Shown here: in pieces, positions 5,697 through 59,126 of the stretch
Numbering within the stretch: the first letter of the stretch is position 1
Layout of the letters: every line of letters starts with the position of its first letter
IMG/VR virus record: IMGVR_UViG_3300028608_000006
Span: 1-64,000 of that record
From: a virus
Reading direction: 5' to 3' (one strand)
Length of the DNA: 64,000 nt
Notes under the pieces: generated by a model
Seen by the model: the letters and a program-made list of their open reading frames with translations, nothing else
The model's database searches: none
Told to the model about the DNA's origin: nothing
Position numbers and translations under genes: made by a program

Positions 5697-5705
5697 GGAA
5701 TCAGT

Positions 5706-5981
5706 ATGAGCTTGACCACTCTTAAAACTATCAAGCGTAACAACAGCCTTGCTCTGCTAGAAGTACCGATGAACCCAACCTCCGCGTGGTTGCTTGTCCC
5801 TCTTGACAGTCAAGCTCCCCACCCCGACGTGATTGACTTCAGCAATGAAGGTTATCGCTTCTACCTCGACCCGAACATTGCGGGCGATGCTTTTGATCAA
5901 ATTAACCACGGTGTCGAACCGTTGGGTAAATTCAAAGGACTTCGTTGGTCTGACACTGTTCCGTTCCTGGTTTCGCATTGA
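5706..5981 (+). CDS. Hypothetical protein, 91 aa
   Basis: Starts MSLTTLKTIKRNNSLALLE after CTGAGGAATCAGT. Compact mixed alpha/beta composition with no export signal. Last gene of the plus-strand run, ending just before the bidirectional hairpin at 5990-6035. Family not recognised. Confidence 0.5.
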   Translation: MSLTTLKTIKRNNSLALLEVPMNPTSAWLLVPLDSQAPHPDVIDFSNEGYRFYLDPNIAGDAFDQINHGVEPLGKFKGLRWSDTVPFLVSH

Positions 5982-5989
5982 TTCAAACA

Positions 5990-6035
5990 TATCCCTTACC
6001 CTGCCTCCATTACGGGGACAGGGTAAGGGGGTTAT
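5990..6035. terminator. Bidirectional terminator between convergent genes
   Basis: An 11-bp perfect stem, CCCTTACCCTG (5993-6003) with CAGGGTAAGGG (6019-6029), separates the convergent 5706-5981 gene and the terminase. It carries the AGCGGACATAA tag on the minus strand (6031-6041). Confidence 0.75.
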
Positions 6036-6040
6036 GTCCG

Positions 6041-18183: not shown

Positions 18184-18621
18184 TTAAGGTCGTTTGTCCC
18201 TTCTACGGTCTTCCGTATACAACACGCCTCGAATGCACGTAAGGGCGTAGTTATTCATCAGCACCACCTGCCTGAAGACTTCCAGGTCTTTTGAGTGGGA
18301 CTTGTTCTTGCCGTCAGTCGGGTTGGCCCGCATGATAAACTTGTAAACCTGTTGGTCAGTGTACCAGCCTGGGAAGACGATCTCCCAACCATCCGCTTTT
18401 CGCAGTATGTTGGGATACTCCAGACTCCAATCCCTGGTAATTCTGACGCAACCCGCGTAGATACCCAACTTGTAGGTAAACACCATACCGTTGACGGTTC
18501 TCTCGACGTGGTAGGAGAACGCTCGACTTTCCATCACTCGTTGGATAACCAGAATGATTAGCACCGCATAGATAATCAACAGTGCAAAGTTAACTCCGAT
18601 ATCGTACGTAGTTTTGGACAT
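18184..18621 (-). CDS. Single-pass membrane protein, 145 aa
   Basis: Starts MSKTTYDIGVNFALLIIYAVLIILVIQ with AGGAGG 6 bases upstream. One membrane helix at residues ~8-27; the remaining ~115 residues carry charged and aromatic stretches. There are two Cys (residues 58 and 130). Last gene of a five-gene minus unit starting at early motif 3, so probably early. Role in membrane takeover or exclusion is speculative. Confidence 0.6.
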   Translation of the reverse strand: MSKTTYDIGVNFALLIIYAVLIILVIQRVMESRAFSYHVERTVNGMVFTYKLGIYAGCVRITRDWSLEYPNILRKADGWEIVFPGWYTDQQVYKFIMRANPTDGKNKSHSKDLEVFRQVVLMNNYALTCIRGVLYTEDRRRDKRP

Positions 18622-22085: not shown

Positions 22086-22217
22086 TTAGCGGGAAGTCAA
22101 TGCGTTGCTAATACCGTTAGAGATGTATTGCGAACTCGTCCCGGCGTCAGTACCGGAGCAAGCTGCACAAATCCCAACGATAGCAATAACGAGACCGATG
22201 AGTGTAAGTGCTTTCAT
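22086..22217 (-). CDS. Small lipoprotein, 43 aa, entericidin-like
   Basis: Starts MKALTLIGLVIAIVGICAAC. The ATG at 22217 sits 7 bases from GGAG; an ATG at 22223 is too close to it. A hydrophobic segment leads to AAC with Ser after, an imperfect lipobox giving a mature lipid-anchored peptide of ~25 residues rich in Ser, Thr, Gly and Asn (YISNGISNAL). Size and composition resemble entericidin-type cell-envelope lipoproteins. First gene after early motif 4, so likely early. A role in blocking superinfection is only inferred. Confidence 0.6.
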   Translation of the reverse strand: MKALTLIGLVIAIVGICAACSGTDAGTSSQYISNGISNALTSR

Positions 22218-32419: not shown

Positions 32420-33295
32420 TTAAGCAGCGGTCAGGACACGATTGACTGTGTCCATCCCTTTGTAATACGTGTCGTACAAGCGAGCGTTGATTTCGCCCAC
32501 AGTGATCTGCCCGTCCTTGTCGTAGTCGAAGCCAGAGTTCTGACGATAGCCAGTAGCCTCAACGTCCTTACGGAAGATAACGGTATCAGCGGACAACCCA
32601 ACCGCTTTCGGGTAGAAGATGGTCAGGTAGAAGTCTTCCAGCTGCGTGTAGGTCTTGCCACGCTTCGCCCACATGTCGAAGTAAGCGAACACCCACTTGA
32701 GTTGTTCGATCTGTGGCAGAACCCGCAGCGATGCGGTGGTGGTCTTGAGGTCAGCAGCCGCCATGTCGCCGAACTGGATCAAGCCGAAGTACTTGGCCCC
32801 TGCACCGTTCTGAATGGTCGGGCTGAACGTACCACCCGTTTCAAAGCACATGCAGGACATCAGCCAGTCCACAGCTTCATCAGGCCAGTTGCGGGCTTTG
32901 CAACCCGCGATGACCGCGTCCAGAAACTCCTTCGATACCTTGGTACTCCAGGCTGCCTTATAACGAGGCAAACGGTGTTGTTGGATATAGCCATCGAGTG
33001 CTTTACGGACACCCGATTTAGTGCCTTTACCGTAGACACCATCCACCTTACCGTCGTACAGCCCAGCCGCCTTCAGCAGATCCTGAATGCTTACAATGGC
33101 TTTCACCGTTGCATCACCTGGAATCGTCGAAGGAGGAATGTTCGGTAGGTCCATGCGTTTGTACGCGGTGAGCAGGGACATCATGGCGAACAGACTGCCG
33201 CCTCCCCATGCACCGTCGATACCGGAAGTGTAGAGACCACTTTCCTTCAGCATTACCTGAACGTCTTTGATACCGTTGGAGTTTCTGTAGTTCAT
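32420..33295 (-). CDS. Modular endolysin: peptidoglycan-binding repeats plus transglycosylase
   Basis: 291 aa, near the 260-330 of phiKZ gp144, EL188 and OBPgp279. Two peptidoglycan-binding repeats at residues ~5-45 (VQVMLKESGLYTSGIDGAWG) and ~67-105 (IQDLLKAAGLYDGKVDGVYG). The catalytic lysozyme-like transglycosylase domain (~115-290) has Glu152 in CFETGGTFSP and GAKYFGLIQFG after it. It degrades the glycan of the murein at lysis. An EF-hand-like loop, DYDKDGQITVGEI (257-269), is close to the C-terminus. GAGG at the end of the beta gene serves as ribosome-binding site; the genes are 1 base apart. Confidence 0.88.
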   Translation of the reverse strand: MNYRNSNGIKDVQVMLKESGLYTSGIDGAWGGGSLFAMMSLLTAYKRMDLPNIPPSTIPGDATVKAIVSIQDLLKAAGLYDGKVDGVYGKGTKSGVRKALDGYIQQHRLPRYKAAWSTKVSKEFLDAVIAGCKARNWPDEAVDWLMSCMCFETGGTFSPTIQNGAGAKYFGLIQFGDMAAADLKTTTASLRVLPQIEQLKWVFAYFDMWAKRGKTYTQLEDFYLTIFYPKAVGLSADTVIFRKDVEATGYRQNSGFDYDKDGQITVGEINARLYDTYYKGMDTVNRVLTAA

Positions 33296-33296
33296 G

Positions 33297-36200
33297 TTAC
33301 TTACCTCGATAGATGGCGATGGCTTGTTTAGTGACCGCGATGGTGAGTTCGCAACTGACCAGCTTGTTACGGAAACTCAACACCATTCGGTTAAACATAC
33401 CTTTAAGACTGGTTTTGATCAGAACTTCACGACCATCTTCGGTCATCAGGGGCTTGTGCATGATGCGACCCACTGTGCCTTTCATCTGGTTCGCGATAAC
33501 GTATTTGTCCGCGTTGGTACTTGGATCCATGGACTCCACCAAGATGGTGACGAACGCTTTACCAGGCGACAGAATCGGCTTGTTAACGTTCAAGCTGTTA
33601 GACACAGCTCCCTTTACAACATCGGACCCTTCAATCTCTGCGGTTCTCTTGCGGGCTTTGTCCTGAGAGGTGATGAACTTCTTCACCGTCTCCGACATAT
33701 CTTCGGGTGCAGAGTTATACACCACGTCGATTTTGATGACCTTGCCGTGATGCTTGGAACGAACTTGCCGGATACCCAGTTTGTTCATTTCCGTGGCGAG
33801 ACTAACTTCAGCAACATCGCCCACCAAGTGAGCGTCTTCAACGTTGCATAAAATCGAGTCATAGTCAACAGAATCGCCCACTTTAACTTCGAGGCTGATG
33901 TTCTGTACCACGTCGATCGCGAAACGCATACCTTTGATGTACGGAGTAACACCTTCCATAGCCAGTTCTTTCGCAATGGCGATGGAGTCTTCGTACACGT
34001 CCTGGTCTTCCACCATGGCAATCCGCACCATGCGCCCTGCTTTCCAAGCCACTTGACCTGGGCAGAAAGCGTCTCGAGCAAACCACTGCTCATCCCAACC
34101 AATCACATCACCCTTATTAAAGCTATCGCCAACCTTGAGGTCAGTGATCCGGGTATGTCGATGGTATTCACCTGCTGCCTCACCGATAGCCAACCCGAGA
34201 GGGTAGACGTCAGTGGTGCCGTCCTTATACGTCACTCTGAGAGCGTCCTCAGTGACTTCTGTGACCTTGCCAGCGTCAGTAGCTACCTTGCTGTACAGAT
34301 CGGACGTACGGTGCGCTACGACGTTCTCGTAGCCGGTACGGAGGATGTTCGGCGTGTAGTTCATTGCACTGACCGCCTGACTCGCTTGAGTCGAGGTAAA
34401 GGTCGAACGTTTCGGGTCATCGTGACCCACGCCGTACTGCAAGTTACCCGTAACCGATACCAAACCCGAGTTGGACGGTTTCTCACCCAGAGCGATGTTA
34501 CCCCGGAAGTCTTTGATGCTAGGGTCAGAGGTCAGGTAGGTTACGAAGCCTACTTTACCGCTGTCCTTGTTCGCCTCCGAGATCTTGCCCTTGTAAGTGT
34601 CCAGCTGCTGACGAGCGCGTTTCACCATGGTGATCTCACTACGACCACCCACACCGCCGAAGGTTACTTCTTCCTGATCCTTCAACTGGTGAATCGGGTT
34701 CACCTCTTCCACCAAGTTCACCGAGGTATCGGTAATGATGTTGAGGATAACCGCTTCAGGGTTGATGTCGATGGTGTGCTTGCGCTCTTTGCCTTTGTTC
34801 CGGTACATGCGAATGGCTTTCACCAATTCCCGGTACACATGACCCGCAAACCGCTCGTAACCCACGATGCGTTGTTCTTCAATCTCTACTTCATGACGCG
34901 AGTAGTCCGTCTCCAGCAACTTCACAGCGTCGATCAGCAGATAGTGGAAGGACGTCGCATAACCCAACTTCGCCAGCTCTTCCTTGGTCACCGGGTCGAT
35001 GAACAGGTCGAACAGGTTCTTCATTTCCTTGAACTGCTGAGGCTTAACCTTTGGATCGCCCATCAATGGAACCCAGATACCTTTCTCGTTGAGATCGGTG
35101 CGACTGAAGTTACTGATGTTGTTCAGCTTCGGCATACCACCGAAGATCAGGCTGGCCAGTTTCTCACGACGGTTGAAGATCAGGTACTCGTCGTTGAAAG
35201 CAATAGCGTACTCATCTTCACTGAGCTTAGGACGGGTGCCCATTGGAACAGTGCGAGTGGTCGCCTTGGTAACTTGGATCAGCTTGTCGATACCGAAGTA
35301 GTAGCAGAGCACCACACCAATCGGGAAGTGATACCCGCTGATGTTGATGACCGCGTACTCGATAGGCGCCTTGGCCAAAGACACACCGCACAGACCCTCT
35401 AGGGTGCCCATCTCGGTGTCGCCGTGGTAAAGGTTACCGTAACTGTCAATCCACAGCGGCTTGCCCGCCTTAACGCCCACCAGGAAGCACTCCTTCTTGG
35501 TGTACTTCAAGCGGTAATCAGGATACTTCTCCAGCAACTCGTCAATACGGAAGTCGAGAGTAACGTCGCCAACAGTAATGAACGTGAACTTCTTCGCCAG
35601 AATGCTGTAGATCCGTGGGGAGATGTAGTCAGGGTTGTAACCCGAACCTTGGCTGTAAGTCAGGAAGGCAGCCTCACCTTCTTTCTTCATGCCACGGGTA
35701 CGGATCTGTTTCACCAGCCACAGACCGTAGTCGTCCACCACCTTCTGGCTACGCAGCACCATGAGCTTGCGGTCATAGTAGCTGGTCAGAGCAACCTTGA
35801 AAGCGTTGATCTTGCGGATCGGCAGTTCCATGCGTTGCAGTTGCATGTGTTGCTTCACACCGTCAACAGTGAAAGACCCATCCTTCTGCACTTTAGGCAA
35901 ACGGATCTGGTGGGTACTTTGAGCGCCGTCTACAGGGTGAAGCTGAATGCGCAGTACGTCGTAGGCACCTTCAACACCGGAAATCGATTCGGTCTTGTAG
36001 TCAGCTACCGCAACACCGGCGTTCTGCACACCCACTACCATCTTGGCAATGTCTTTGTGCAGGAAGCGCTGAGCGTACTCTTGTTTCAATACAGCGGAGC
36101 GGCTACGGAGCATGCTCTCGTCAAGCACGGTGATGAAGTTACCTTCGATCTTGCCGTCCAACGAGTTGATCTCTTCTTGAGAGATGTGCATGTATTCGCC

Positions 36201-37613
36201 CAGTGTCTGACCGTTCTCCATTTCAATGTGCTGGAAGGCAGTGCCCTTGCGCATGAAGAAGTTTTGTTCAGAGACTGTCAGAACGCCATCACGAGCACGT
36301 TCTTCCAAAGCCGCACGGATGCCAGACTCAGGGGTAGGGAACGCATCCTTGTTGGTCGAGATCTCCACCGAAGTGGTTTCAACGTCCAACAGGGAGTCAT
36401 CTACGTTACTTGTCCAATCCCCAGCAGCTTCATCAGCTGTATGTTCTGCCGCATCTCCTTGCCCTTCCACCAGTGCGCCGTTATGTCCCGCGTCACTGCT
36501 GAAAACATCAAGGATGCTACTATCAGCAGAATGATCATCCACAGGCGCATCTTTGCCAGCAGGCGAGGTTGCTTCTCCGTTACCGGATGCTCGTCCTTGC
36601 CCTTTCGCAGCTCCCGCCTTTCCTTGAGCCACTGAAGCGTCGTTTTCCGCTCCACCGGATCCGTTGGCTCCTGTTCCATCTTTCTTCTCCTCGTCGGTAA
36701 TATCCTTTTCACTTACCGAACCACGGGACAAGTTCATCAACGCCAAGTAGAAACGCTTGGTTACGTTGAGACGCTTGGGAGAAACTGCTTCAGTCTTGTC
36801 CTTCGTGTTCAGCTCGTCAAGCCAGGACTTGATCGTTTTAACGTTGATGATCAATGCCTTGCTGTTCGAAGTAAAGATGAAGTGCAGGTCGTCTTCCGCC
36901 TGAGGGCTCAACTTACCGAACAAACTGTACTCGTACTGTCCCTGTAGGAAAGCCAACAGATCCAGCAACCAGTATGTCCCCTCGGCTTTAGTTACCCGAA
37001 GAGATTGGTTACTAGGAACTGGAAGACCTTCTTTAAAGCTTCCGATATACTTTTCATAATCGACCATCAACTCTTTGTAAGAGGGAACGTTGATCGGGAG
37101 TTCCATTCGCAGGAACTGTTTACGGGTCTGTGTGCGGGCTGCCTCCTCATTCGCACCCTCAACCAACATGTTCAGCCGGTTGTAATGGATTTCGAAGTTA
37201 ACGAAGGTCGCTGCACGTTGAGCCCAGGTTTTGTCCGCAATGCCGTAGTTCTTCACAACCAGCACATCGTTTCGGCGATACACCGTGTTGATGTCTTTGG
37301 TCCAGTTGTAGTTGTAGTGGCTGGCGCGATACGCTTGAATCGCTTTCTTGATGTCGAACGCCAACACACGACCATGCCCCAACACCGGAGTGAAACGAGG
37401 CACGAACTCAACGAACACGTCTTCTGGGAAGTTAGAGATAAACGCTTCCGACACAGAAGGACCGTACTCACTCGCCAGCTTCGGTACAAAGTGCACCAAG
37501 GCTTGCTTCGGCATGACAATCTCGCTCACGCCGATAAAGTTGGGCTCTATGAGCTCCTGTTTCTTCCGTTGTACAAACAGCTTGAAAAACTCACTGTACG
37601 TAAGAAGCCGCAT
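33297..37613 (-). CDS. RNA polymerase beta subunit, single chain (phage multisubunit type)
   Basis: 1438 aa. C-terminal blocks match bacterial beta: NPIHQLKDQEEVTFGGVGG (~970-990) over the rifampicin region, VEDQDVYEDSIAIAKELA (~1197-1214) over the NFEDAI block, and YVIANQMKGTVGRI then EDGREVLIKTSLKGMFNRM (~1367-1410) over the KxAGRHGNKGVV/PLGVPSRM blocks. The N-terminal ~300 residues would be the beta protrusion/lobe. A Gly/Ala/Asp-rich disordered linker occupies ~300-430. phiKZ encodes beta in two proteins; here one chain. It pairs with beta' next door, and likely forms the virion RNA polymerase. Confidence 0.82.
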   Translation of the reverse strand: MRLLTYSEFFKLFVQRKKQELIEPNFIGVSEIVMPKQALVHFVPKLASEYGPSVSEAFISNFPEDVFVEFVPRFTPVLGHGRVLAFDIKKAIQAYRASHYNYNWTKDINTVYRRNDVLVVKNYGIADKTWAQRAATFVNFEIHYNRLNMLVEGANEEAARTQTRKQFLRMELPINVPSYKELMVDYEKYIGSFKEGLPVPSNQSLRVTKAEGTYWLLDLLAFLQGQYEYSLFGKLSPQAEDDLHFIFTSNSKALIINVKTIKSWLDELNTKDKTEAVSPKRLNVTKRFYLALMNLSRGSVSEKDITDEEKKDGTGANGSGGAENDASVAQGKAGAAKGQGRASGNGEATSPAGKDAPVDDHSADSSILDVFSSDAGHNGALVEGQGDAAEHTADEAAGDWTSNVDDSLLDVETTSVEISTNKDAFPTPESGIRAALEERARDGVLTVSEQNFFMRKGTAFQHIEMENGQTLGEYMHISQEEINSLDGKIEGNFITVLDESMLRSRSAVLKQEYAQRFLHKDIAKMVVGVQNAGVAVADYKTESISGVEGAYDVLRIQLHPVDGAQSTHQIRLPKVQKDGSFTVDGVKQHMQLQRMELPIRKINAFKVALTSYYDRKLMVLRSQKVVDDYGLWLVKQIRTRGMKKEGEAAFLTYSQGSGYNPDYISPRIYSILAKKFTFITVGDVTLDFRIDELLEKYPDYRLKYTKKECFLVGVKAGKPLWIDSYGNLYHGDTEMGTLEGLCGVSLAKAPIEYAVINISGYHFPIGVVLCYYFGIDKLIQVTKATTRTVPMGTRPKLSEDEYAIAFNDEYLIFNRREKLASLIFGGMPKLNNISNFSRTDLNEKGIWVPLMGDPKVKPQQFKEMKNLFDLFIDPVTKEELAKLGYATSFHYLLIDAVKLLETDYSRHEVEIEEQRIVGYERFAGHVYRELVKAIRMYRNKGKERKHTIDINPEAVILNIITDTSVNLVEEVNPIHQLKDQEEVTFGGVGGRSEITMVKRARQQLDTYKGKISEANKDSGKVGFVTYLTSDPSIKDFRGNIALGEKPSNSGLVSVTGNLQYGVGHDDPKRSTFTSTQASQAVSAMNYTPNILRTGYENVVAHRTSDLYSKVATDAGKVTEVTEDALRVTYKDGTTDVYPLGLAIGEAAGEYHRHTRITDLKVGDSFNKGDVIGWDEQWFARDAFCPGQVAWKAGRMVRIAMVEDQDVYEDSIAIAKELAMEGVTPYIKGMRFAIDVVQNISLEVKVGDSVDYDSILCNVEDAHLVGDVAEVSLATEMNKLGIRQVRSKHHGKVIKIDVVYNSAPEDMSETVKKFITSQDKARKRTAEIEGSDVVKGAVSNSLNVNKPILSPGKAFVTILVESMDPSTNADKYVIANQMKGTVGRIMHKPLMTEDGREVLIKTSLKGMFNRMVLSFRNKLVSCELTIAVTKQAIAIYRGK
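36401..36679 (-). CDS. Overprinted membrane-protein ORF within RNA polymerase beta
   Basis: 92 aa in another frame of the same strand, lying over beta residues ~312-405. GAGGAG is 7 bases before the ATG at 36679, one of the best ribosome-binding sites in the region. The product has a highly charged N-terminus (MEQEPTDPVERKTTLQW, then RERRELRKGK-like basic residues), a membrane helix at ~46-62 (LWMIILLIVASLMFSAV) and a short C-terminus with WWKGKEMRQ, giving N-in topology by the positive-inside rule. Expression not shown; chance hydrophobicity cannot be ruled out. Confidence 0.42.
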   Translation of the reverse strand: MEQEPTDPVERKTTLQWLKERRELRKGKDEHPVTEKQPRLLAKMRLWMIILLIVASLMFSAVTRDITAHWWKGKEMRQNIQLMKLLGIGQVT

Positions 37614-37615
37614 TG

Positions 37616-39232
37616 TTACTCCTCAAGACCACTCGTAGCGGCCTTCAACATAAACAGAATCGGTTCGTTGACAGGGTCATAAAGGAAACGACCGCTGCCA
37701 CTGATGTAGTACTCGCGCTTGCCGAACAGATCCCGAACTTCGGACTTACTGTCTTCGGCGTTCACGCTGTTGCTGTTCAACTGGTCACCGTCGTGGTCGG
37801 AGTCATAGCCCGCTTCACGAGAAGGGTCAACCGACATGGCATCGAAGTAGTCAGGGGTTTCCGTCCGGTGCGGGTAACGGGAACAGGTTTCCATTACTTC
37901 CCAATCAGGGGTGCGAATGGTCCGAGGCTTAGCCCCAGTGATCGTCACCAAGTTCACCTTGGCAGGAACGATAGAACCGATACCAATGATCGGGTAACGT
38001 GTCTGCTGGGTGATCTGATCCATGACTGTGGCTTGACACGACAGGTAGAACAGCTCCATGTACGTGATTGGACGAACCAGTTTACGGTCCTTATCCTTGG
38101 GGAGATCGTTGATGTCATGCAGCACACAAACGTCCTCACCATCGTCATAGACTAGGGCGAGGTAGTGTTTTTCAACGATGATCTCCTTGTTCCGCAGATG
38201 CACGTTGGAGAAGCCGTTGAAGAGTTTGTTCAACCCAGTAAAGGTCGACCACTTCTCAACCACATACGGTGGCACTTCGACGTACTCGTATTCGAGGGTC
38301 TTGGTGTTCACCAGCTTCACGGTCTGCGAACCAGGAGTAAAGATGTTCTGCAAGTACTTGCTCAGAAGAGCGTGCACACAGACGTACTGGTTGTTCAGCA
38401 GCGCTTGATACAGACCGATGTCCGTGGAGTTAGGGTTAACCCCGTTGGTCTTGAACAAGTCTGCCCGAGAGACCTTACGCGCAGTAATAACGTTACGGGT
38501 ACCCGACACCACACCACGAGTAGACAAACGCTTCTGGAACAAACCCCCTTTACCTTCAGTCAAACCGAAGAGGTATTGGTCGATGTCGTTGAAGGCACTT
38601 TGCAGGGACCAACGCACGTTGTCGTACAGTGGGTTCTCCGCATCCCGTTGACTACCCAAACTGATGACTCGAGTCTTGAAGATCAGCTTCCTATATAGGT
38701 CGGTGATCTCGGGCTCAGTCGGAGCACCGCTCGGTTGGAACTGAATGTCCCGCAGACCCGCCGGAATCACCAACACTTTATTGCTGACGGCGATGTCACG
38801 GAACTGAGTGACCAACTTCACCCGCTGCTTACGTTTGTAGGAATCCGTCGTAGCAGGAACGATTTCGTGGAAGTGACGCATAAAGAAAGCAAAACCCGTC
38901 TCCCCGTCGAGGAGGTTGGATTTTATGAAATCTTTAGCCACAGGATCCCATACCGCGTATTCCGTTCCTTTCAGAATACTGAGGTACAAGGATTTTATTT
39001 GCGTCAGTGCTTTGAAGTAAGTTGGGTTGAAGAGCCCGAGCTTTGTGTCAATGTACGCTTCAGTTCTATCGCGCTCTTTGCTACCCAGCTTGCCGAAAAT
39101 CTCTAGGGAATAAAGACCCTCGTCATTCAAGTTCTGGGTCATCCCTTCAAAGGCGTCCGTGGACGTTACTTCTTTGAAGACGCCCGGCAGAATAGTCTTT
39201 GGATCTAACAACTTAAGGTTTGTGGGCTTCAT
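37616..39232 (-). CDS. RNA polymerase beta' N-terminal subunit
   Basis: 538 aa. It has the beta' catalytic loop YDSDHDGDQLNSNSV (Asp479, Asp481, Asp483; bacterial NADFDGDQMAVHV), which binds the catalytic Mg. DEGLYSLEIFG (~37-47) matches DGLFCxRIFG, and GGLFQKRLSTRGVVSGTRNVI (~235-255) matches the [22 protein letters not shown] block. The Cys residues of the N-terminal zinc ribbon are absent. The chain ends about 55 residues after the loop, so bridge helix and trigger loop must be on another gene (phiKZ gp80-like), not seen here. Two bases separate it from beta. Confidence 0.85.
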   Translation of the reverse strand: MKPTNLKLLDPKTILPGVFKEVTSTDAFEGMTQNLNDEGLYSLEIFGKLGSKERDRTEAYIDTKLGLFNPTYFKALTQIKSLYLSILKGTEYAVWDPVAKDFIKSNLLDGETGFAFFMRHFHEIVPATTDSYKRKQRVKLVTQFRDIAVSNKVLVIPAGLRDIQFQPSGAPTEPEITDLYRKLIFKTRVISLGSQRDAENPLYDNVRWSLQSAFNDIDQYLFGLTEGKGGLFQKRLSTRGVVSGTRNVITARKVSRADLFKTNGVNPNSTDIGLYQALLNNQYVCVHALLSKYLQNIFTPGSQTVKLVNTKTLEYEYVEVPPYVVEKWSTFTGLNKLFNGFSNVHLRNKEIIVEKHYLALVYDDGEDVCVLHDINDLPKDKDRKLVRPITYMELFYLSCQATVMDQITQQTRYPIIGIGSIVPAKVNLVTITGAKPRTIRTPDWEVMETCSRYPHRTETPDYFDAMSVDPSREAGYDSDHDGDQLNSNSVNAEDSKSEVRDLFGKREYYISGSGRFLYDPVNEPILFMLKAATSGLEE

Positions 39233-39261: not shown

Positions 39262-42200
39262 ATGGCTGACGATTTTGATATGGATTGGGGCGACGACCCC
39301 TTTTCGGGGGACATGAGTTTTGACAGTGATTTTGACACCCCGTCCAACCATGGCTTCCTGCGTTCGTTCACCACGGGGTTTCTGAGCGGTTTGGTGGAGA
39401 AGACCGTCGGTGATACTGACGCTCGAATCGACACCTTAAAGATGGTGTTGCCGCGCAGTTACCTGGGAGCGTTCAGCACATTAAGTGATCTGAACCGCCG
39501 TCGTGCAGAATTGATGCAAGAGATCAAAGGCGACTCCTACGAGTCTGTCAAAGATCTGCAATACCTCGCTGGGCGCGCTGCGGATAAGCTCCGCAAGATT
39601 GCCCCTAATAAGATCGCTGACGGTTTTCAGAACTTTAGCCAAAATGATTTCAGTGATTGGGAGAAGGCAAGCAGTGGTGGTCGTGATTCCGGACCAAGTC
39701 TTTCCGACACCACCGAAGACGAAATAAAATCAGCCATTGACAACGCCGACGCCAACTCCGTGCTTGAACGGGAGACGATGATCGGTTCGGCTGGCGCTAT
39801 CACGGACATGATGGCAAACGTCGGTGGTCGTACTCTGGCTAACTTGCAGGCCATGGGTCAAGGGACGGTACGTACTAACCAGCTGTTGGAGCAGATTGTT
39901 GACTTCCAACGTCGGGTTCAGGCGCGCAACGATGCCTTGAAACTTAACATCATGACCCGCTCGTATTTGACGGACGCTAAGTTCTACAAGTTCGTTGAAG
40001 CGAGTAACCACCGTATTGTTGAAGAGCTGAAGAAGATCAGCGACAGTTCTGCCAAGTCTGACTACGAAAAGACCACACACTCCCAAGCGGTGCGTAAGAC
40101 TATCCGGGAATCCGTGTTCAGTTCGGTCAAGAGCAAGATCGGCGGTATTTCTGGTTTCATCGATGATCGTTTTGGCAAGAACGCTCGTGGCGAGTTCACT
40201 GGCGGCTCAAACGAGCTGATCAGTTCGATTCGCATGGCTGCCGAGATGACCGAGGGGATGGACCTTAACCTCGGGCAGATGTTGGGTAACGCTGCTGCGG
40301 GTATCTTCATCAACAACCTCCCCCGGATGCTTAAATCGGGCAAGGCGAAGAAGTACCTTGACGACTTCAAGAAGAAGTTCCCTGCACAGGCTAAGTGGGC
40401 GGAAGATGCTTACATCCGCATCACTGACTTGGGTAACGTGGCGTCGTACGGTCTGACCAACGCCGAAGGCCTGACCAACACCATGGCGAAGTATTACCAA
40501 GGTGGCCAGACGTGGAGCGAAGCCGAGGATTACGAACAGTATCTCGACCTGCTTCCTGAGGGTGAGCAGAAGCTCAGCAAAGTTGAGTGGACTCTCATCA
40601 GCAACGCTCGCAAGATTGGTAACAAAGCGTTTGCAGGTGTGTTCGACAACATGAGCCGTTCCAACGGTACTCAGTACACCTTAGCGCGGCGTACGTTGGA
40701 CAATGGTCACGAGCAAGCTTTGTGGAACAACCGCTCCGACCGTACCCTCAACGAAGTGTTGCCACAATGGCTGAGTCAGATCCACTTGTCTCTTGAGAAG
40801 TTCCGGACAGGCGATGATGACATGCGGGCTATGACCTACGACTATGTCAAGGGTAAGTTCAACAGCCATGATCAGAAGATCTCCACCGTTCTCAACCAAG
40901 TGTTGGACAAACGTCAGTTCAGTAACCAAGCGACAATGGCGAACAATTTGGCGGAACAGATCGATGCTGATGGTGCCCTGACTCCGGAGGCTAAACGAGA
41001 GTTGGCGTTCCTTCTGGCGAAAGACACTGATGCGGACATGGGTTTCAGTCCTTACAACTACCTGCACGCCGATAAGGAGCACGGCGTGCCTCCTGCATTG
41101 GCGGCTGAGATCAAGCGCATGATTCAGGTGCAGTTTGGTATCAGCGACGATCACATCAAGGCCTTTAATGAAGGTACTGATGTAGACCGCTCGAAGGCTT
41201 TGATTTACATGCCGACTGAAAAAGGTCGTCAGCGAGTGGCAGAACTGGCGCCTTCGGCCAAATCGCTGGGTGCTTTCGCCCCTGACATCACCAACCGACT
41301 GGATGTCCTTAAGTCGAGCGGGTATTACGATGCAATGAAAGAAGCGGGTATCGTCACTACAACGGACGGTCAAGACAACGTCGACATGGAGAAGATCTGG
41401 GGTACGCTGAAAAGCTTCATCCAAGACACCAAGCGTGAGACCGCCCCACGCGTTCCTGACGCCGTTCCGTTGCCAAGCCGCGCCTTCGGTGGGGGTTATC
41501 CTCCGCAACCTGCTCCGCCTACCCCAGGACCTCTCCCACTGCCTGGTCCTACTCCCGTTATTCCGGAGTCGATCAAGCTGGATGGTTTGGAAGACCTGAC
41601 CAAGTCCATGAGCGGTATGGAGGGCTTGAAGGAGACCATGGAACAGCTGGGCAAGTCCTTCTCGGGATACCGTCCTCCTGATGCACCTCCGACGGTGGAC
41701 ATCGTTCCTATCACCACAGGGCTCGAAGGGATCAGTGCTAAGCTTGAGCAGATGCTTGCTCTGGGGACTACTCGTAACCAGATCCTGACCGACATCCTCC
41801 TGCGTCAACCGGCTGAAGCCAAGCCGTTGTCCGAGAGTGATGAGAAGGAAGTGTCTCGTGAGAAGAAAAGTCTCCTTGATAAGCTGAAGGGAACTTCGTT
41901 CAAGGATCTCTTTAACAGTGGCGTTGAAAAGCTGATGGACAACCAACCGCTGATCCTGGGTGGGTTGTTGGGTGGTCTGGCTGGCTTGGCGGTCTACGAT
42001 AAGAAGAGCGCTGCGTTGCTGGCGGGTGGCGCGATTATCGCTGGCGGCTACATGAAGCTGAAAAGCCTCAAGTCCAAAGAAGCTGACGATACACAGGACC
42101 TTTACGAGGAAGGGGCAGAGAACCCTATTCTGGAGGCGTCCAAGCTTCAGAACGGCGATTACTACGATGCCACTAAGGGCTTCTTGATCAAGTCCTGGAA

Positions 42201-45200
42201 AGACATCACTGGCAGTGTTGTGGACAACGTCACCAAGGTTGTGATTGGTGCTCGTCGTTTGGCCGGTAAACTCTTCACTTCGGAGAATAAGGAAGTCTTC
42301 CTGAGTGGTCTGGACAAGGTGCGGGAATACCTGCTCAAGGCGTACCACTTCATCGATCCGTTCAAACGGGTTAAACGTTGGGGTAATGCGCTGCGTACTC
42401 GCTTCTACCAGATGGACGTGTATAAGGAAGGGGAAGATTCACCGACACTCGTTGGGAAACGTTTTGAGTCGGGCGCTTATTGCAAGCGTAACGAATCGGG
42501 TGAGTTGGAGGTCATCAACGGCTGGAACGAGATTGATGGTCCGGTCTACACGCCTGAGGGTGAGGTCATCATTACTCAGGACGAGTACGACCGTGGGTTG
42601 CGTACCTCGATGGGGGTCAGTGTTAACAAGCTGCAAGAAGGCTCCAAGAAATTGGGTCGACTGGGCTTGGACTTCCTCGGTAAGGTGAAAGACAAAGCCT
42701 TGCCAATGATGGGAATGGCCGCGGATAAAGCGAAAGGTGCGATGACTGTTAGTTACGCGCCGATTGTGAACTCCGTAGATCGCATCTACAACCTGTTGCT
42801 CAAACACTGGGGCTACCAGCAGGAAGTAGACATTGAACTGCCTGAGCCGACCGTACAGCCTGTGGCAGGTCCTACCAAGGATCAACCAGGTACACCAAAG
42901 GGAACCCTCATCCCTACCATCGTGGAGAAACCCGAAGCGGATGTTGTTGATCCGAACAGGCCTTTCCCGAAGAACCCTTCCATCAAGCCTAAGACCCCAA
43001 TGGAGAATGCGGTCGAGAAGGTTAAAGAGGATCTCGAAAGCAATACCCCTCAGGGTCGTCTGAACTCCCTTGCTGACAAGAAGGAGAAGAGTGAAGAGAA
43101 ACGGAAAGCGGACTCTGAAGAAGCTCTGATCTACATGGCCAAGAACTTTGGCTTCGGTGCTAAGCCGGGTGAAGAGGAGAAGAAAAAGAGTCAAGGTCTG
43201 TTCGGTCTGCTGGCCAGTGGCTTTGGCGCTATCGCCAGTGGCATTGCTGGGATCACTACTTTCTTCACCAAGCGACTGTTCAGTGGTTTCCAAACCCTGT
43301 TCAGGTTCGGCTCTCTTGGTTTGAAGGTATTCCCTATCTTGGCGACCGGTATCACTGCGGTTGCTAAAGGGATCTTCACCCTCATTAAAACTCGCAGCGT
43401 TACTGAAGCTGGTGGTTCGGTATGGGATACTCTCACCGGGGGTGGTGAAGAAGATGCTGGTGAAGGCAAGAAGGGCAAGGGTAAGAAAGGCAAGAAAGGC
43501 AAGAAGGGTGAGAAAGCCCCTCGAACCGCGGGCAGTCGTTTGAAGACCGGTGTCAAAGGCGTTGGGTACGGCATGGCGGCTGGGATGGCTACTGACTTCC
43601 TGATGGATAGCGGTATTGTCGACGAAGACTCGGCTACCGGGACAGTGTTGGATGCGGCGAGTACGGCGGCCACTGCTTACGGCGGTTACCAAATGGCCGC
43701 TGGTGTTGCGACAGCCGCTGGTCTTGACATCAGTGCAGGTGCTGTAGCGACGGGCGTGGCTGCTGGCGGTGCTGCTGCTGCTTCTTGGGTGGGTGGTACA
43801 GCTGCGGCTGGTATGGTGGCGAACCTCGGCATTGCCGCGCTCCCTATGCTGTTGAACCCGTATGTCTTGGGTGCGATTGCTGTGGGTGCTGTTGGTTACG
43901 GGATCTACCGTTTTGTGAACCGTGGCGAAGGGAAACAGTTCGAACTTCGTATGGCTCAGTACGGTGTCTCTGACCCGGATTCCGATCTGGCGAAGAAGAT
44001 CCTGAAAGCGGAAGAGATGCTTCTTTCCCATGTCGTCATCGGTAACGGTCGCGCTTCGTTCTCGAAGCAAGCCCCTATCAGTGAAGTGATTCAGATGTTT
44101 GTAAGCGATCCGAAGAACAACAAGGAAGTCGGTGACGTCTTTACTTGGTTCAACGGTCGTTTCAAGCCTGTGTTGCTGACGTACATGGCTTGCCTTGACA
44201 CCATCAAGATGAAGTCCTTGAAGGAATACGACGAGGGCAAAACGCAAGACATCTACAAGGTGGCGAAGCAGACGCACGCGGCACTGAACGGGGTTCAACC
44301 TTACCCGTACTCCATCACGGCGAAGATCGATGCCGATACCCCTATCCTCGGTGAGAAGGCAACCCTGATCCGGGTTAACAACTTGCTGGGTGAGCTGAAG
44401 GATTACATCGACCGCAAGACACCATCTGAAGACCTGAACCCTATCACCACGCCTAAGGCTCAAAGTAAGGCGGGGCTTGAGAAGGAGAAGGCTGAGCTGA
44501 AACAAACCGTGGAAGGACCACGCGGTTTCTTTGACAGCAAAGAGAAGATGGCTCGGGTAGCCAAAGCTGAAACCCGCCTGCAACAGGTTGACGAGGAAAT
44601 CAAACGCCTCAACGACTCTTACAAAGCTGGTGGAATTGTCGCTCAGATCTACATCAAGGATTTGATGCCGGACGACAAGGCAATGGACCTGATGACCGCC
44701 ATCCGCGCTGCCTGCTACGGCAACGAGGAAGATGTTACATGGCGTGTCGAAGCGGTGATGAAGCTGGAGCGTTACTGCGAACCTTTGTTTGCTGATCGTG
44801 GGGAGTCGATGGAGTTCACTGGCCAGATTGGTCAGATCTTCAGTCTGTTCAAAGATTCCTTCCGGGTTAGCGATGGTGATGCAGACGATTGGTGCCTGTG
44901 GTTCCGTGACCGGTTCTTGCCGGTTCTGACGACCTACATGAACACCATGAAGACCTATCGCCGTGGACGCCCTGCCGTGGTGTGGAAGACCCTGTCGGCA
45001 ACGGCTCGGTACGAAATCGCCAAGGCATTGGTTGAAACGAAAGGTAAGGGTACGCTGTGGTTTGACTTCTCCATCTGGACTGTACGGGCATCTCCTTTCA
45101 AAGGCACTAAGTCTCCCGCTAAACCTGACAAGGTAGATCGGATGCTGAAGCTGCTGGGTGAAGCCAGTACTGCGGCGAAGTTAAAAGATCCTGAAGCAGA

Positions 45201-47301
45201 GGCCGGTAAAACCAACGCACAAACTTGGGCGAAGACTGTATCCCCGCACAAGGTCGGTGGCGACTTCCAACCTGAGGCGCCTAACGTCGATGACGTGAGC
45301 AAAGCCAAAACCCGTGGTGAAGTAGCGGGCGGTGGTCAGTTCGGTACCAATGGGTCTGGGACAGGCAACACGTACTCGGCAGGCGGTGTGTATCAAACGC
45401 CTTCCAACAAGTACGGGTTCGTTCCACTGGGTGGTGACTCCGATACCAGTCACTTGGACATGTCGGGTGTTAAAGCTCAGGAAGGGAATGACAAAGGGGT
45501 TAAGGTTCCCAAGAAGCTGGCTCAACAAATCCTGATTCGGGAAATGCTGAAACAAGGCTTTACGGATCCTCGGGAGATTGCGGAAGTACTGGCGCTGACG
45601 GATTACGAGTCGGGCGGTTATCAGAACACCACTGAGAGCCTGAAGTACTCTGATCCGAAACGTTTGGCGAGCATGTTCAGGGAAGTGAAGAGCGTCGAAC
45701 AAGCGCGCATGCTGATTGACCAAGGTGAGGTGGCCATTGCCAACACTGTTTACGGTGGCGGTAAAGGTGCATCCATTGGTAACCGTGAACCAGGAGACGG
45801 TTGGAAGTATCGTGGGCGTGGTTTCATTCAGCTCACGGGTAAAGCGAACTACGCCAAGACCGGACAAGAGTTGGGGATTGACCTGGTTAACAAACCGGAA
45901 CTCGCCTCCAATGACCCTAACGTCATGGCCGCTGTCGCTGTTAACTTCTTCAAGAACAGCAAGCTTCTGCGCAGTATCAGTCAGACCGGCAACTTCGGTG
46001 AAGCCGCAAAAGGACTTAACGGCGGTAACGAACTTCCAGGGATGCCTAAACGGTATCAGTTGTACCTGTCTTACCTGGAACAGTTGCAGAAAGGCGAACT
46101 CTCCACGGAAACCAGTACTGCCGAGGACCCAGCAGCTGCCGAAGGGCAAACGGCTGGTCAGATGTACGGTGGTGGCGGTTCCAGCGGTGGTGGCTCTACA
46201 GGGGCTCCTGCGGCAAGTGGTGGGGGTGGCGAAGCTCCAATGATGGGAAGCGGTAATCTGCCTTCTCTCGCTAACGCACCTGCGGGTGGCGGAGCATCTG
46301 GTAACTATCAGACTCCAGCTCCAGCGGGCGGTGGTGGGTACGGTAGTAACCCTGAGATGGATCCAGCCGCTGTTCCGTTCAGCGGGCCATACCAAGACTC
46401 CGACTTGCTGGTTAACAGCAATGCTTCGGGGACTAGTGGGCTTCGTCTGAAATCGGCTGAGTCGGTTGCTGGTGGTAAGGCTCACCCGGGTCTTACAGCG
46501 TTGTGCAAAATGATTCAACAGCGAGTACCGGGCTTCAAGGTGTTCACTGCTCTGAACGACGCGTACCACGTTAACAAAGGTTCTAAAGGGGCTCACCCTA
46601 AAGGACTGGCGGCTGACTTCACGTTGACCAATGGCATTGCAGGCAGTGATCGTGCTGCGACGATGGTAACGGAGATTCTGCGTCAAGCAGGTCTGCAACC
46701 CGGTGCCGAGTTCTTGGTCATCAACGAGTACAAGCGGAAAACTGCCATCGGTACAGGCGGTCATGTTCACGCGGGCTTTAAGTCGCCAGCGGCAGCACAG
46801 AAGTTCTTGGATGCAGCAGGTGGTACCCAGACCAACGGTCAGGACACTACCGGTACTGGCGGTGGAGCGGAAGTAGCGCCTGAAGAGGCACCAAACCGTG
46901 CACAGCCAACCCTGCCACCAGGTAACCCAATGTCTGCACCGGATGAAGAAGGCGGTGCCGCAGCTCCAAGCGCACAACCAGCTTCTGCTGCACCGGGTGC
47001 TGGCTTCACAGGCTTGCCTCTTCCTAATCAGCCACCTCCTCAGCAACCGCTTCCAGAGGGTTACAAAGGACCGGCGCCAGCTCCTCAGGCGCCAGCACCT
47101 GTTGCTCAAGCACCGAAGGCAGCTCCGGCTCCTGCGACGCCTGATAACAGTGCTCAAGTGGCTGAGCTGATGAAGAGCTTGATTGCCGCAACACAATCTT
47201 CTGGGGGTGACAACGCGCAGTTGTTGAAAGCCGTCCTAGATCAACTGGTTCAACTGAACAAGAAAGGGGAGAAAACTCCTCAAGGCGTGAAGGTGAACTA
47301 A
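39262..47301 (+). CDS. Giant virion protein, tape measure/tail lysin with GH19 and M15-like domains
   Basis: 2679 aa. The N-terminal ~800 residues are helical; Pro-rich linkers follow (~740-775). Hydrophobic/Gly-rich stretches occur at ~897-935, ~1313-1375 and ~1440-1540, and a Lys/Gly run (GKKGKGKKGKKGKKG) near 1401. A GH19 chitinase/lysozyme-like domain (~2085-2290) has candidate catalytic Glu2116 in DYESGGY, TESLKYS, and YRGRGFIQLTGKANY. An M15-like peptidase domain (~2395-2520) has H2445-x6-D2452 (HPKGLAAD) and HVH (2501-2503) metal ligands. AGGAG precedes the ATG. The equivalent position in phiKZ holds gp181, a 2237-aa lytic protein. It likely breaks cell wall during genome entry. Confidence 0.8.
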   Translation: MADDFDMDWGDDPFSGDMSFDSDFDTPSNHGFLRSFTTGFLSGLVEKTVGDTDARIDTLKMVLPRSYLGAFSTLSDLNRRRAELMQEIKGDSYESVKDLQYLAGRAADKLRKIAPNKIADGFQNFSQNDFSDWEKASSGGRDSGPSLSDTTEDEIKSAIDNADANSVLERETMIGSAGAITDMMANVGGRTLANLQAMGQGTVRTNQLLEQIVDFQRRVQARNDALKLNIMTRSYLTDAKFYKFVEASNHRIVEELKKISDSSAKSDYEKTTHSQAVRKTIRESVFSSVKSKIGGISGFIDDRFGKNARGEFTGGSNELISSIRMAAEMTEGMDLNLGQMLGNAAAGIFINNLPRMLKSGKAKKYLDDFKKKFPAQAKWAEDAYIRITDLGNVASYGLTNAEGLTNTMAKYYQGGQTWSEAEDYEQYLDLLPEGEQKLSKVEWTLISNARKIGNKAFAGVFDNMSRSNGTQYTLARRTLDNGHEQALWNNRSDRTLNEVLPQWLSQIHLSLEKFRTGDDDMRAMTYDYVKGKFNSHDQKISTVLNQVLDKRQFSNQATMANNLAEQIDADGALTPEAKRELAFLLAKDTDADMGFSPYNYLHADKEHGVPPALAAEIKRMIQVQFGISDDHIKAFNEGTDVDRSKALIYMPTEKGRQRVAELAPSAKSLGAFAPDITNRLDVLKSSGYYDAMKEAGIVTTTDGQDNVDMEKIWGTLKSFIQDTKRETAPRVPDAVPLPSRAFGGGYPPQPAPPTPGPLPLPGPTPVIPESIKLDGLEDLTKSMSGMEGLKETMEQLGKSFSGYRPPDAPPTVDIVPITTGLEGISAKLEQMLALGTTRNQILTDILLRQPAEAKPLSESDEKEVSREKKSLLDKLKGTSFKDLFNSGVEKLMDNQPLILGGLLGGLAGLAVYDKKSAALLAGGAIIAGGYMKLKSLKSKEADDTQDLYEEGAENPILEASKLQNGDYYDATKGFLIKSWKDITGSVVDNVTKVVIGARRLAGKLFTSENKEVFLSGLDKVREYLLKAYHFIDPFKRVKRWGNALRTRFYQMDVYKEGEDSPTLVGKRFESGAYCKRNESGELEVINGWNEIDGPVYTPEGEVIITQDEYDRGLRTSMGVSVNKLQEGSKKLGRLGLDFLGKVKDKALPMMGMAADKAKGAMTVSYAPIVNSVDRIYNLLLKHWGYQQEVDIELPEPTVQPVAGPTKDQPGTPKGTLIPTIVEKPEADVVDPNRPFPKNPSIKPKTPMENAVEKVKEDLESNTPQGRLNSLADKKEKSEEKRKADSEEALIYMAKNFGFGAKPGEEEKKKSQGLFGLLASGFGAIASGIAGITTFFTKRLFSGFQTLFRFGSLGLKVFPILATGITAVAKGIFTLIKTRSVTEAGGSVWDTLTGGGEEDAGEGKKGKGKKGKKGKKGEKAPRTAGSRLKTGVKGVGYGMAAGMATDFLMDSGIVDEDSATGTVLDAASTAATAYGGYQMAAGVATAAGLDISAGAVATGVAAGGAAAASWVGGTAAAGMVANLGIAALPMLLNPYVLGAIAVGAVGYGIYRFVNRGEGKQFELRMAQYGVSDPDSDLAKKILKAEEMLLSHVVIGNGRASFSKQAPISEVIQMFVSDPKNNKEVGDVFTWFNGRFKPVLLTYMACLDTIKMKSLKEYDEGKTQDIYKVAKQTHAALNGVQPYPYSITAKIDADTPILGEKATLIRVNNLLGELKDYIDRKTPSEDLNPITTPKAQSKAGLEKEKAELKQTVEGPRGFFDSKEKMARVAKAETRLQQVDEEIKRLNDSYKAGGIVAQIYIKDLMPDDKAMDLMTAIRAACYGNEEDVTWRVEAVMKLERYCEPLFADRGESMEFTGQIGQIFSLFKDSFRVSDGDADDWCLWFRDRFLPVLTTYMNTMKTYRRGRPAVVWKTLSATARYEIAKALVETKGKGTLWFDFSIWTVRASPFKGTKSPAKPDKVDRMLKLLGEASTAAKLKDPEAEAGKTNAQTWAKTVSPHKVGGDFQPEAPNVDDVSKAKTRGEVAGGGQFGTNGSGTGNTYSAGGVYQTPSNKYGFVPLGGDSDTSHLDMSGVKAQEGNDKGVKVPKKLAQQILIREMLKQGFTDPREIAEVLALTDYESGGYQNTTESLKYSDPKRLASMFREVKSVEQARMLIDQGEVAIANTVYGGGKGASIGNREPGDGWKYRGRGFIQLTGKANYAKTGQELGIDLVNKPELASNDPNVMAAVAVNFFKNSKLLRSISQTGNFGEAAKGLNGGNELPGMPKRYQLYLSYLEQLQKGELSTETSTAEDPAAAEGQTAGQMYGGGGSSGGGSTGAPAASGGGGEAPMMGSGNLPSLANAPAGGGASGNYQTPAPAGGGGYGSNPEMDPAAVPFSGPYQDSDLLVNSNASGTSGLRLKSAESVAGGKAHPGLTALCKMIQQRVPGFKVFTALNDAYHVNKGSKGAHPKGLAADFTLTNGIAGSDRAATMVTEILRQAGLQPGAEFLVINEYKRKTAIGTGGHVHAGFKSPAAAQKFLDAAGGTQTNGQDTTGTGGGAEVAPEEAPNRAQPTLPPGNPMSAPDEEGGAAAPSAQPASAAPGAGFTGLPLPNQPPPQQPLPEGYKGPAPAPQAPAPVAQAPKAAPAPATPDNSAQVAELMKSLIAATQSSGGDNAQLLKAVLDQLVQLNKKGEKTPQGVKVN

Positions 47302-54682: not shown

Positions 54683-56140
54683 CTACGCTGCTTTACCCGC
54701 AGCTTCTTTTATCCAGTACGGCTTGCGTTCGCCCAGAGCAACTTTCAGCAGCTCCATGGTGGACACAGTCGACTTCTTGATGTCAGGGTTGGTGAACCAG
54801 TAATCCACGGTGTTCTCGAGGATATCGTTCCAGTCAATGCCCTGATCTTTGATCTTGGTGTACAGTTCTTGCGGGGTGATGCGGTACTTGTGGTCGAGTT
54901 TCAACCAGAAGGTTTGCATGAACCACATCTGGTAGCAGATACCGAGCGCACGCAACAGCTTCTTGTCGTCGGTGGTCTTACGCCAAACGGTGGTACGACC
55001 CAGCTTGCATTCCGGGTACAGGACACAGGCATGGCTAACCACGCTGCCTTCCAGACCGAACATGTTGGAGGATTTCATAGCATGATACATGCTCAAACCC
55101 TCTTGGATCCCTAGAGACTGGGAACCAATAAAGAACAAGCTACTACCAGAAGAGCCACTCTTGTTACGGAAAACGCTAGTTGTGTAGAAAAGCAGATCAG
55201 GGTTTTCTTTTGCATCTTTACCAATTACCACGTCGCTGCCGAACGGATTAGGGTACATCCATTCCTGGCCAGATTTGAGCGCACTGCCCTTAATGATCCG
55301 GTAACCGATCTGAGGAATACGCAGCAGGGATTTAGGTCCCTTGAGCTTCTTGCCCTGACCGATGAACACGGTTTCCTTTTCCAACGGCTGACCTGTCATG
55401 TTGACAATGTCAGTTACTTGAGCGGTGGTCACTTGATACGCACCGAACTCACCACCCAGCACATCGCAGTCTTCATAGACGATACGACGCTGGTTGCCGA
55501 TCACGAGGTCACGCGTCTTCTGCGCACCACCGGTGTCGACTTCTTCTTCCTGGAACTTGGCCGATGTTTTGGCGAAGTGCATTTCCGAGATGGAGTCGGT
55601 AATGGTCAGGATAGGAGAAATGATCTTCATCTGCAAACCGTCGTTACCTGCATACGGTGTTGCGATGTAGATGTCGTGCTTGGCCTTGATCGCTTCTTTG
55701 ATCTCGCCATGACGATCTTTGAACCACTGGTGAACGAAGTTACCGTCACATGGGTTCTGGATATCGTTTCGACTGAAATAGAAGAAGCGGACATCCATGA
55801 TGAATTCAGCGAAGTAACCCGGGATACCCATCTCACGATCGACTTCATCAGCCAGACGGCTAACGTTGAAGGTCGCTTCGATGTCAAAGAACACAACGAT
55901 GGACGTGTGATAACGAACCAGAGTACGCGCCATCATCAATACGCACTGACCGGTCTTTTGGGTGTTGTTACCACCTGTGACCGCGTTGTTCCGGCAGATA
56001 CCGCCGTTCATGTAGGTAATGCCATCAGGACCTACCAAGAACTCGCCGTTGATCATGTCCATCATCGGGGAGTACTGGAGTGTCGCGATTACCGTATTGG
56101 AAGACTTCTGATTCTTTGCCCAACTATGCGGAGTTGTCAT
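54683..56140 (-). CDS. RecA/UvsX-like recombinase
   Basis: 485 aa. It would form filaments on single-stranded DNA for strand exchange and recombination-dependent replication. The ATPase core has a Walker A-like AVTGGNNTQKTG (53-64), followed by the helix GQCVLMMARTLVRY and the strand IVVFFDIEATFN (81-92), as in RecA FIDAEHALD. A variant of phiKZ gp152, the UvsX-like protein of that group. I chose the ATG at 56140 (GGGGAA upstream) rather than a TTG at 56158. The P-loop has Asn-Thr-Gln rather than the usual small residues before Lys-Thr. Confidence 0.72.
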   Translation of the reverse strand: MTTPHSWAKNQKSSNTVIATLQYSPMMDMINGEFLVGPDGITYMNGGICRNNAVTGGNNTQKTGQCVLMMARTLVRYHTSIVVFFDIEATFNVSRLADEVDREMGIPGYFAEFIMDVRFFYFSRNDIQNPCDGNFVHQWFKDRHGEIKEAIKAKHDIYIATPYAGNDGLQMKIISPILTITDSISEMHFAKTSAKFQEEEVDTGGAQKTRDLVIGNQRRIVYEDCDVLGGEFGAYQVTTAQVTDIVNMTGQPLEKETVFIGQGKKLKGPKSLLRIPQIGYRIIKGSALKSGQEWMYPNPFGSDVVIGKDAKENPDLLFYTTSVFRNKSGSSGSSLFFIGSQSLGIQEGLSMYHAMKSSNMFGLEGSVVSHACVLYPECKLGRTTVWRKTTDDKKLLRALGICYQMWFMQTFWLKLDHKYRITPQELYTKIKDQGIDWNDILENTVDYWFTNPDIKKSTVSTMELLKVALGERKPYWIKEAAGKAA

Positions 56141-58658: not shown

Positions 58659-59126
58659 TCAAGGTAACTTTTTAGAGTCGGCTGGTGTGCACATTTTGAG
58701 TAGCACATCGTTATTGGTCTTCAGCCTTTCGTTCTCAGCCAACGCCCGGATAAGATAGGGACGCAGGAAGTTGTTCTCATCGGTAAGCTTGATGTTGTTT
58801 TTGAACAGCAGCAAGTTCTCTTGTTTGACCAACGTCATCTGCTTGTTGAGACTGTCGTTGATGCGTACAAAAGCTTTCAGTGGACCCCCATCCGTGGGAT
58901 CGAAGAGCAGGCTAACTTTGGAGACACCTGCTTCCATGTCGGATAGATCAATGCGTAGGTTAATATTGGCCATCAGTAGACCAATAGTTGCCCACGACAA
59001 AATAGCAATGAGGAAGACGGCAGACTTGAGTACAGAAGTAAGTTGTTCTTCGACCGTCGCTCCCTTAACAAAACGCAAGACAAATTCTATGAATCTGTCG
59101 GCCAGCTCCTTCAAGAGCCCAAACAT
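58659..59126 (-). CDS. Single-pass membrane protein with coiled coil, 155 aa
   Basis: MFGLLKELADRFIEFVLRFVK: amphipathic N-terminus, then a membrane helix at ~36-53 (AVFLIAILSWATIGLLMA), then a ~100-residue exterior part with heptad-like Leu/Asn/Lys repeats (LNKQMTLVKQENLLLFKNNIKL). One Cys near the end (MCTPADS). Topology resembles an inner-membrane spanin, but there is no adjacent lysis gene or nested outer-membrane partner to support that. Divergent from the 446-aa virion gene. Confidence 0.6.
   Translation of the reverse strand: MFGLLKELADRFIEFVLRFVKGATVEEQLTSVLKSAVFLIAILSWATIGLLMANINLRIDLSDMEAGVSKVSLLFDPTDGGPLKAFVRINDSLNKQMTLVKQENLLLFKNNIKLTDENNFLRPYLIRALAENERLKTNNDVLLKMCTPADSKKLP

Follow-up and report, generated by a model that had tools for sequence, protein, structure and literature searches.

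The window that we analyzed, a stretch of 64,000 nucleotides, is part of a virus record of 231,788 bases (IMG/VR record IMGVR_UViG_3300028608_000006, positions 1 to 64,000). On its minus strand, the gene for a beta-like subunit of a virion RNA polymerase sits between a second polymerase subunit gene, which comes first, and an endolysin gene, which comes directly after it; a 92-codon open reading frame (ORF) lies within the beta gene in the +1 frame. The features, all on the minus strand, are as follows.

37616 to 39232, minus strand: upstream RNA polymerase subunit of the same operon, 538 amino acids, with DSDHDGD (phrog_2986, 688 bits)
33297 to 37613, minus strand: virion RNA polymerase beta-like subunit, 1438 amino acids, host gene of the overlap (phrog_3148, 1525 bits)
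36345 to 36710, minus strand: predicted disordered linker of beta, residues 302 to 423, containing the overlap (AlphaFold pLDDT below 50)
36687 to 36692, minus strand: GAGGAG, Shine-Dalgarno-like, 7 nucleotides 5' of the ORF's ATG
36401 to 36679, minus strand: overprinted ORF, 92 amino acids (ATG, 91 codons, and TAG, in the +1 frame of beta), single transmembrane segment, candidate holin
36596 to 36646, minus strand: basic N-terminal helix of the ORF product, residues 12 to 28, with the conserved WLKERRELRKGK motif (AlphaFold at modest confidence, and alignment)
36488 to 36544, minus strand: transmembrane helix, residues 46 to 64, LWMIILLIVASLMFSAVTR (Kyte-Doolittle 2.22; within AlphaFold helix 46 to 85)
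36425 to 36487, minus strand: helical tail past the transmembrane segment, residues 65 to 85, with a partly conserved E-x-R-E-x-x-x-x-L-K pattern (alignment and AlphaFold)
32420 to 33295, minus strand: endolysin of the EL188 family, 291 amino acids, just past the beta stop (48% to EL188 of phage EL; PG_binding_1)

An overprinted ORF in the beta linker

The initial annotation had described an ORF with a GAGGAG ribosome-binding site that encodes a charged N-terminus, a membrane helix, and a short tail. We found it so: it runs from its ATG at 36679 to the TAG at 36401, and its product has a basic N-terminal part followed by a single hydrophobic segment (Kyte-Doolittle 2.22 over 19 residues) and a tail. 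AlphaFold predicts helix 12 to 28 and one long helix from 46 to 85, at a modest mean pLDDT of 66. The near-exact match to the beta linker also held, in that the overlap covers beta codons 312 to 403 and thus falls inside the segment of low pLDDT, which is flanked by confident domains.

Across the clade described below, the family products have 80 to 108 amino acids, a basic N-terminal part, one transmembrane segment, and a short tail. The net charge of the N-terminal part was positive in 21 of 21 sequences (+2 to +15, and +4 to +15 in most members), and the C-terminal tail is positive too in many. By the positive-inside rule, the family may well have an N-in/C-out topology; it is ambiguous for the window's own protein, in which the charges are nearly balanced (+2 and +3).

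Taken alone, the window sequence makes a weak case for a gene. When beta was shuffled among synonymous codons, the ORF frame stayed open in 57% of shuffles and was open with a comparably strong transmembrane segment in 0.45%. This null errs on the conservative side, since the second frame may have shaped the Gly/Ala/Ser/Asp composition of beta in this stretch. The ORF is therefore only weakly surprising by itself, and conservation is decisive.

Conservation across relatives

We examined relatives in 21 genomes or contigs and 29 IMG/VR loci, some of which are the same phages. In all relatives whose beta is at least about 37% identical, the same place holds an ORF in the +1 frame with a single hydrophobic segment. 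A tree built from beta without its linker groups the ORF-plus phages, which are phiKZ-related jumbo phages, in a single clade (100/100 support) that includes EL, RisingSun, OBP, N1M2, Miami, pTD1, and Aeromonas phages, and all 33 of its 33 tree members carry the ORF at the same place and in the same frame, with 80 to 108 codons and a single transmembrane segment. Agricanvirus Ea35-70 is the sister of this clade. The same-place ORF was absent from 10 of 10 more distant phiKZ-related phages, which served as outgroups, and a profile search found no standalone homologue anywhere in those 10 genomes. With five lineage representatives as tblastn queries, 52 phage records were matched, every time inside beta. 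In 12 of 13 genomes, the ORF profile had a single strong match, which in each case lay within beta; the ORF of the D3 lineage is too diverged for the profile but nevertheless keeps frame, place, and transmembrane segment.

The initial annotation had pointed to the start codon, the ribosome-binding site, and the absence of stops in relatives as places to look. Neither a stop nor a lost start was found in any relative whose region was read, and a Shine-Dalgarno match of at least 4 nucleotides, spaced 4 to 12 nucleotides from the ATG, precedes the ORF in 28 of 36 relatives; the subgroup of N1M2, PS1, Kc263, and pEt-SU has a weak one only.

The annotated records of the relatives that we examined draw no separate gene at the overlap, and we found no paper on it in a literature search that had little reach into subscription journals. 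As far as these sources show, the gene is new, and so would be the placement of a lysis gene within one for an RNA polymerase. Dozens of sequenced jumbo phages gain a gene that is deeply conserved and unannotated; several of these phages have been investigated for use in phage therapy or as a source of endolysins.

Three related genomes also contain weak second matches to the ORF profile outside beta (E values of 6e-4 to 0.015), in Pantoea phage Survivor at 96018 to 96140, in pEt-SU at 55962 to 56123, and in N1M2 at 45785 to 45904. Two of the three have internal stops; they may be distant paralogues or mere transmembrane similarity.

Selection on the two frames

A comparison of synonymous rates in the two frames, which the initial annotation had proposed, revealed a flip of constraint to the small ORF inside the overlap. 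Between the window and locus L003, beta codon positions 1, 2, and 3 differ at 26, 10, and 5% in the overlap versus 7 to 8, 3 to 5, and 30 to 33% in the flanks. Changes at positions 1 and 3 numbered 24 and 5 in the overlap versus 102 and 411 in the flanks (Fisher test, p = 4e-12). Five other pairs gave p values of 1e-6, 1e-14, 8e-12, 1e-8, and 1e-5, and the six pairs in total come from four separate lineages. We then counted substitutions by their effect in both frames. The alternative-frame dNN/dNS was 0.05 to 0.39 in the overlap versus about 0.5 to 1.2 in the flanks (15 pairs), and the beta dNN/dSN was 0.3 to 1.9 in the overlap versus 0.03 to 0.13 in the flanks. These ratios show that the small ORF is the constrained frame in the overlap. 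The suggestion that the linker is free to tolerate a second frame was right, and the second frame is moreover the more constrained of the two.

The limits of the constraint coincide with the limits of the ORF. Aligned on the ATG, beta wobble divergence stood at 0.26 to 0.46 over the 12 preceding codons and dropped to 0.08 over the first six that follow; aligned on the stop, it returned to about 0.4, rising from about six codons before the stop. These patterns, read across the clade, indicate that the ORF is almost certainly a genuine protein-coding gene.

Two explanations without such a gene were weighed. Ribosomal frameshifting into the alternative frame, which would fuse the N-terminal domain of beta to a membrane anchor, would suit a frame that is always +1 relative to beta. 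It is nonetheless very improbable: the onset of constraint falls at the ATG instead of the in-frame stop farther upstream, many members have the open frame beginning just a few codons ahead of the ATG, and most relatives have the Shine-Dalgarno match before that ATG. This entry was rejected because of where constraint sets in and because no unusual RNA fold was found upstream (z of -0.28). A chance open frame in a low-complexity linker, for which the openness of the window's frame in shuffles with beta residues fixed could be cited, has next to no likelihood left, contradicted as it is by the periodicity flip, the dN/dS ratios, the start and stop boundaries, and the conservation of transmembrane segment, frame, and place across the clade, and it is ruled out by the substitution pattern.

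We also considered whether the (S)ILDVF stretch that beta reads over the transmembrane codons SLMFS is a dual constraint. This was rejected, since the stretch is absent from most outgroups and varies within the clade; the most plausible reading of the ILDVF motif in beta is that it merely shadows the transmembrane codons of the other frame.

Origin by overprinting

At the same position, the linker of the outgroup polymerases is acidic, of low complexity, and free of the ORF. Found in one clade only and absent from the 10 outgroups, the ORF is phylogenetically younger than beta. The proposal of a membrane gene born by overprinting is borne out by the purifying selection on the frame, the single clade with full support, and the ORF-free outgroup linkers, and a single birth within the beta linker, in the ancestor of the clade, is supported by these comparisons. 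In the simplest history, the linker came first, then the endolysin downstream (already so in Ea35-70), and then the ORF, once. The locus offers a clean case of overprinting: the outgroup linkers show the before-state, the origin is single, selection can be measured in each of the two frames, and the new frame is seen to become the main constraint on the older one. A scan of the coding strand for an internal promoter found no sigma-70-like site, which is uninformative because these phages use their own polymerases.

The adjacent endolysin and a candidate holin

The endolysin gene starts -4 to +3 nucleotides from the beta stop in 27 of 27 evaluable IMG/VR contigs with the ORF, and it adjoins beta in the annotated relatives as well. 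The window's endolysin has no signal peptide or SAR-like segment (maximum Kyte-Doolittle 1.05), and the endolysin N-termini in ORF-plus phages are not hydrophobic, so something must open the inner membrane. For the same reason, a SAR endolysin/pinholin system was ruled out. The directly following partner gene belongs with the modular endolysins EL188 and OBPgp279, which are biochemically proven muralytic enzymes (PMC3352856); EL188 is kept in the cytoplasm by a phage chaperonin (PMC7185714). We assigned the 328-amino-acid gene after OBP beta (locus L081) to OBPgp279 by its matching length and GH19-type similarity. In the AH04/OBP-type phages, the catalytic domain of the endolysin has been swapped to the GH19 type and the ORF is retained. 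KZ144-type phages of the phiKZ group, unlike the ORF-plus clade, have no endolysin after beta and no ORF.

For SXP01, a 2025 paper reported two lysins and no holin gene and suggested "unpredicted holin-like genes" (PMC12571629). One of the two lysins, LysSXP-2 (252791 to 253744), has no signal peptide or transmembrane segment and is nontoxic alone, and the second lysin has its own signal peptide; the published conclusion for the system was "holin-independent lysis" (PMC12571629). We found that SXP01 is a member of the clade, with beta at 248463 to 252743, LysSXP-2 right after it, and the ORF inside beta at 249439 to 249618. The ORF is thus a concrete candidate for the missing holin, although the signal peptide of the second lysin leaves room for a holin-free route.

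The initial annotation had raised a lysis gene as one possibility. Indirectly in its favor are the neighboring endolysin without an export signal and the gap in the SXP01 literature; against it, the family resembles no known holin family. The ORF family had no significant match in Pfam, PHROG, or PDB, and none of 25 members had a Pfam or PHROG holin match. Holin families are mutually unrelated, and similarity to a known family is not a defining feature of a holin. On balance, we regard the product as a candidate that is reasonably probable as a holin.

We infer its expression, topology, hole formation, and timing as follows. Ribosomes would start internally at the Shine-Dalgarno sequence and ATG within the late beta mRNA and make an inner-membrane protein of about 90 residues, with a basic N-terminal helix that is probably cytoplasmic, one transmembrane helix, and a short helical tail that is probably periplasmic. 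Late in infection, the protein would build up in the inner membrane and open it at a set time, giving the endolysin encoded directly downstream, itself devoid of an export signal, access to the cell wall. We lean slightly toward the broader view that the holin of the whole clade (EL, OBP, N1M2, Miami, pTD1, RisingSun, and kin) was born de novo inside the virion polymerase beta gene, so that a polymerase and a lysis timer share bases and a late mRNA. If this is true, the clade has looked holin-less since annotation makes no provision for a gene nested in another.

The co-occurrence of ORF and endolysin is one event on the tree; it counts once and may reflect shared ancestry only. In Ea35-70, the same endolysin occupies this position although the ORF is missing, which means that this endolysin is able to function with something other than the ORF. 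This also speaks for the main competing view, in which the ORF encodes a real membrane protein, likewise born by overprinting, that serves a different late or virion-linked purpose. For example, it might hold the RNA polymerase or ejected DNA at the inner membrane, exclude superinfecting phages, or act as an antiholin or lysis regulator. The ORF is encoded within, and restricted to, the virion RNA polymerase gene, and its basic N-terminal helix could bind nucleic acid or phospholipid. The outgroup polymerases of the same family do without the ORF, though, and the slot beside an endolysin that lacks an export signal points to lysis. We consider such a role possible but rather unlikely.

Other lysis components were also compared with the locus. 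A spanin was ruled out for the ORF product, which has no lipobox and only about 30 residues after the transmembrane segment. The small gene after the endolysin was rejected as the holin, as it has no transmembrane segment and is present also in ORF-minus phages. Elsewhere in the window, which is the stretch that the search for further holin or spanin candidates covered, three small transmembrane or lipoprotein-like ORFs with Shine-Dalgarno sequences lie on the minus strand at 22086 to 22217, 58659 to 59126, and 18184 to 18621, none of them annotated as lysis genes. The first (43 amino acids, containing VGICAAC) and the second (155 amino acids, phrog_18283, function unknown) could be spanin-like.

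Comparison with known lysis proteins

Overprinted small lysis genes are already known, from phiX174 and others. Gene E of phiX174 is a single-transmembrane lysis gene of about 90 codons in the +1 frame of the essential gene D, and the ORF is like it in size, in its single transmembrane segment, and in its overprinting in the +1 frame. Unlike the ORF, gene E has no accompanying endolysin, blocks MraY, and has an N-terminal transmembrane segment, whereas that of the ORF product is central and an endolysin follows; we found no sequence relation between the two. The L protein of MS2 has a basic N-terminal part and then one transmembrane segment, and its gene overlaps other coding sequence. L and its kin share these traits with the ORF, whose phages, in contrast, have double-stranded DNA and an endolysin.

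These likenesses raise the view that the ORF product acts as phiX174 E or MS2 L do, targeting the synthesis of the cell wall or the homeostasis of the envelope instead of forming holes. Its similar size, single transmembrane segment, and overprinting agree with this, and the resemblance to MS2 L in outline is a lead only. With a dedicated endolysin next door in every member, such a function would be redundant, which makes this view improbable; a phiX174 E-type amurin, which lyses without a phage endolysin, is ruled out by the endolysin encoded next door.

For the favored holin reading, there is a likeness to the class III holins such as T of phage T4 (one transmembrane segment, N-in, C-out), in the single transmembrane segment, the basic N-terminal part, and probably the action with a cytoplasmic endolysin. 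T differs in having a large periplasmic domain, against only about 30 residues after the transmembrane segment in the window's ORF product, and there is no homology.

Other observations at the locus

In the endolysin slot of the AH04/OBP-like phages, the peptidoglycan-binding N-terminus is kept and the catalytic domain changes from transglycosylase to GH19 type. The swap was seen at 7315 to 8301 of locus L027 and downstream of beta in loci L081, L085, L087, and L093.

In several relatives, insertions that range from a few hundred bases to about 1,300 interrupt the RNA polymerase genes, namely in L016 (EL, 5692 to 6150), L022, L026, and L020 and, for the upstream subunit, in L016, L022, and L024. 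Some are annotated with HNH endonuclease genes (intron or homing elements); the window copies are uninterrupted. Divergent from the polymerase operon, a gene for 2679 amino acids lies at 39262 to 47301 on the plus strand. In relatives, the gene at this position is variously annotated as tail fiber, tape measure, endolysin, or chitinase, and because of these annotations, its product is likely a virion protein with a cell-wall-degrading domain.
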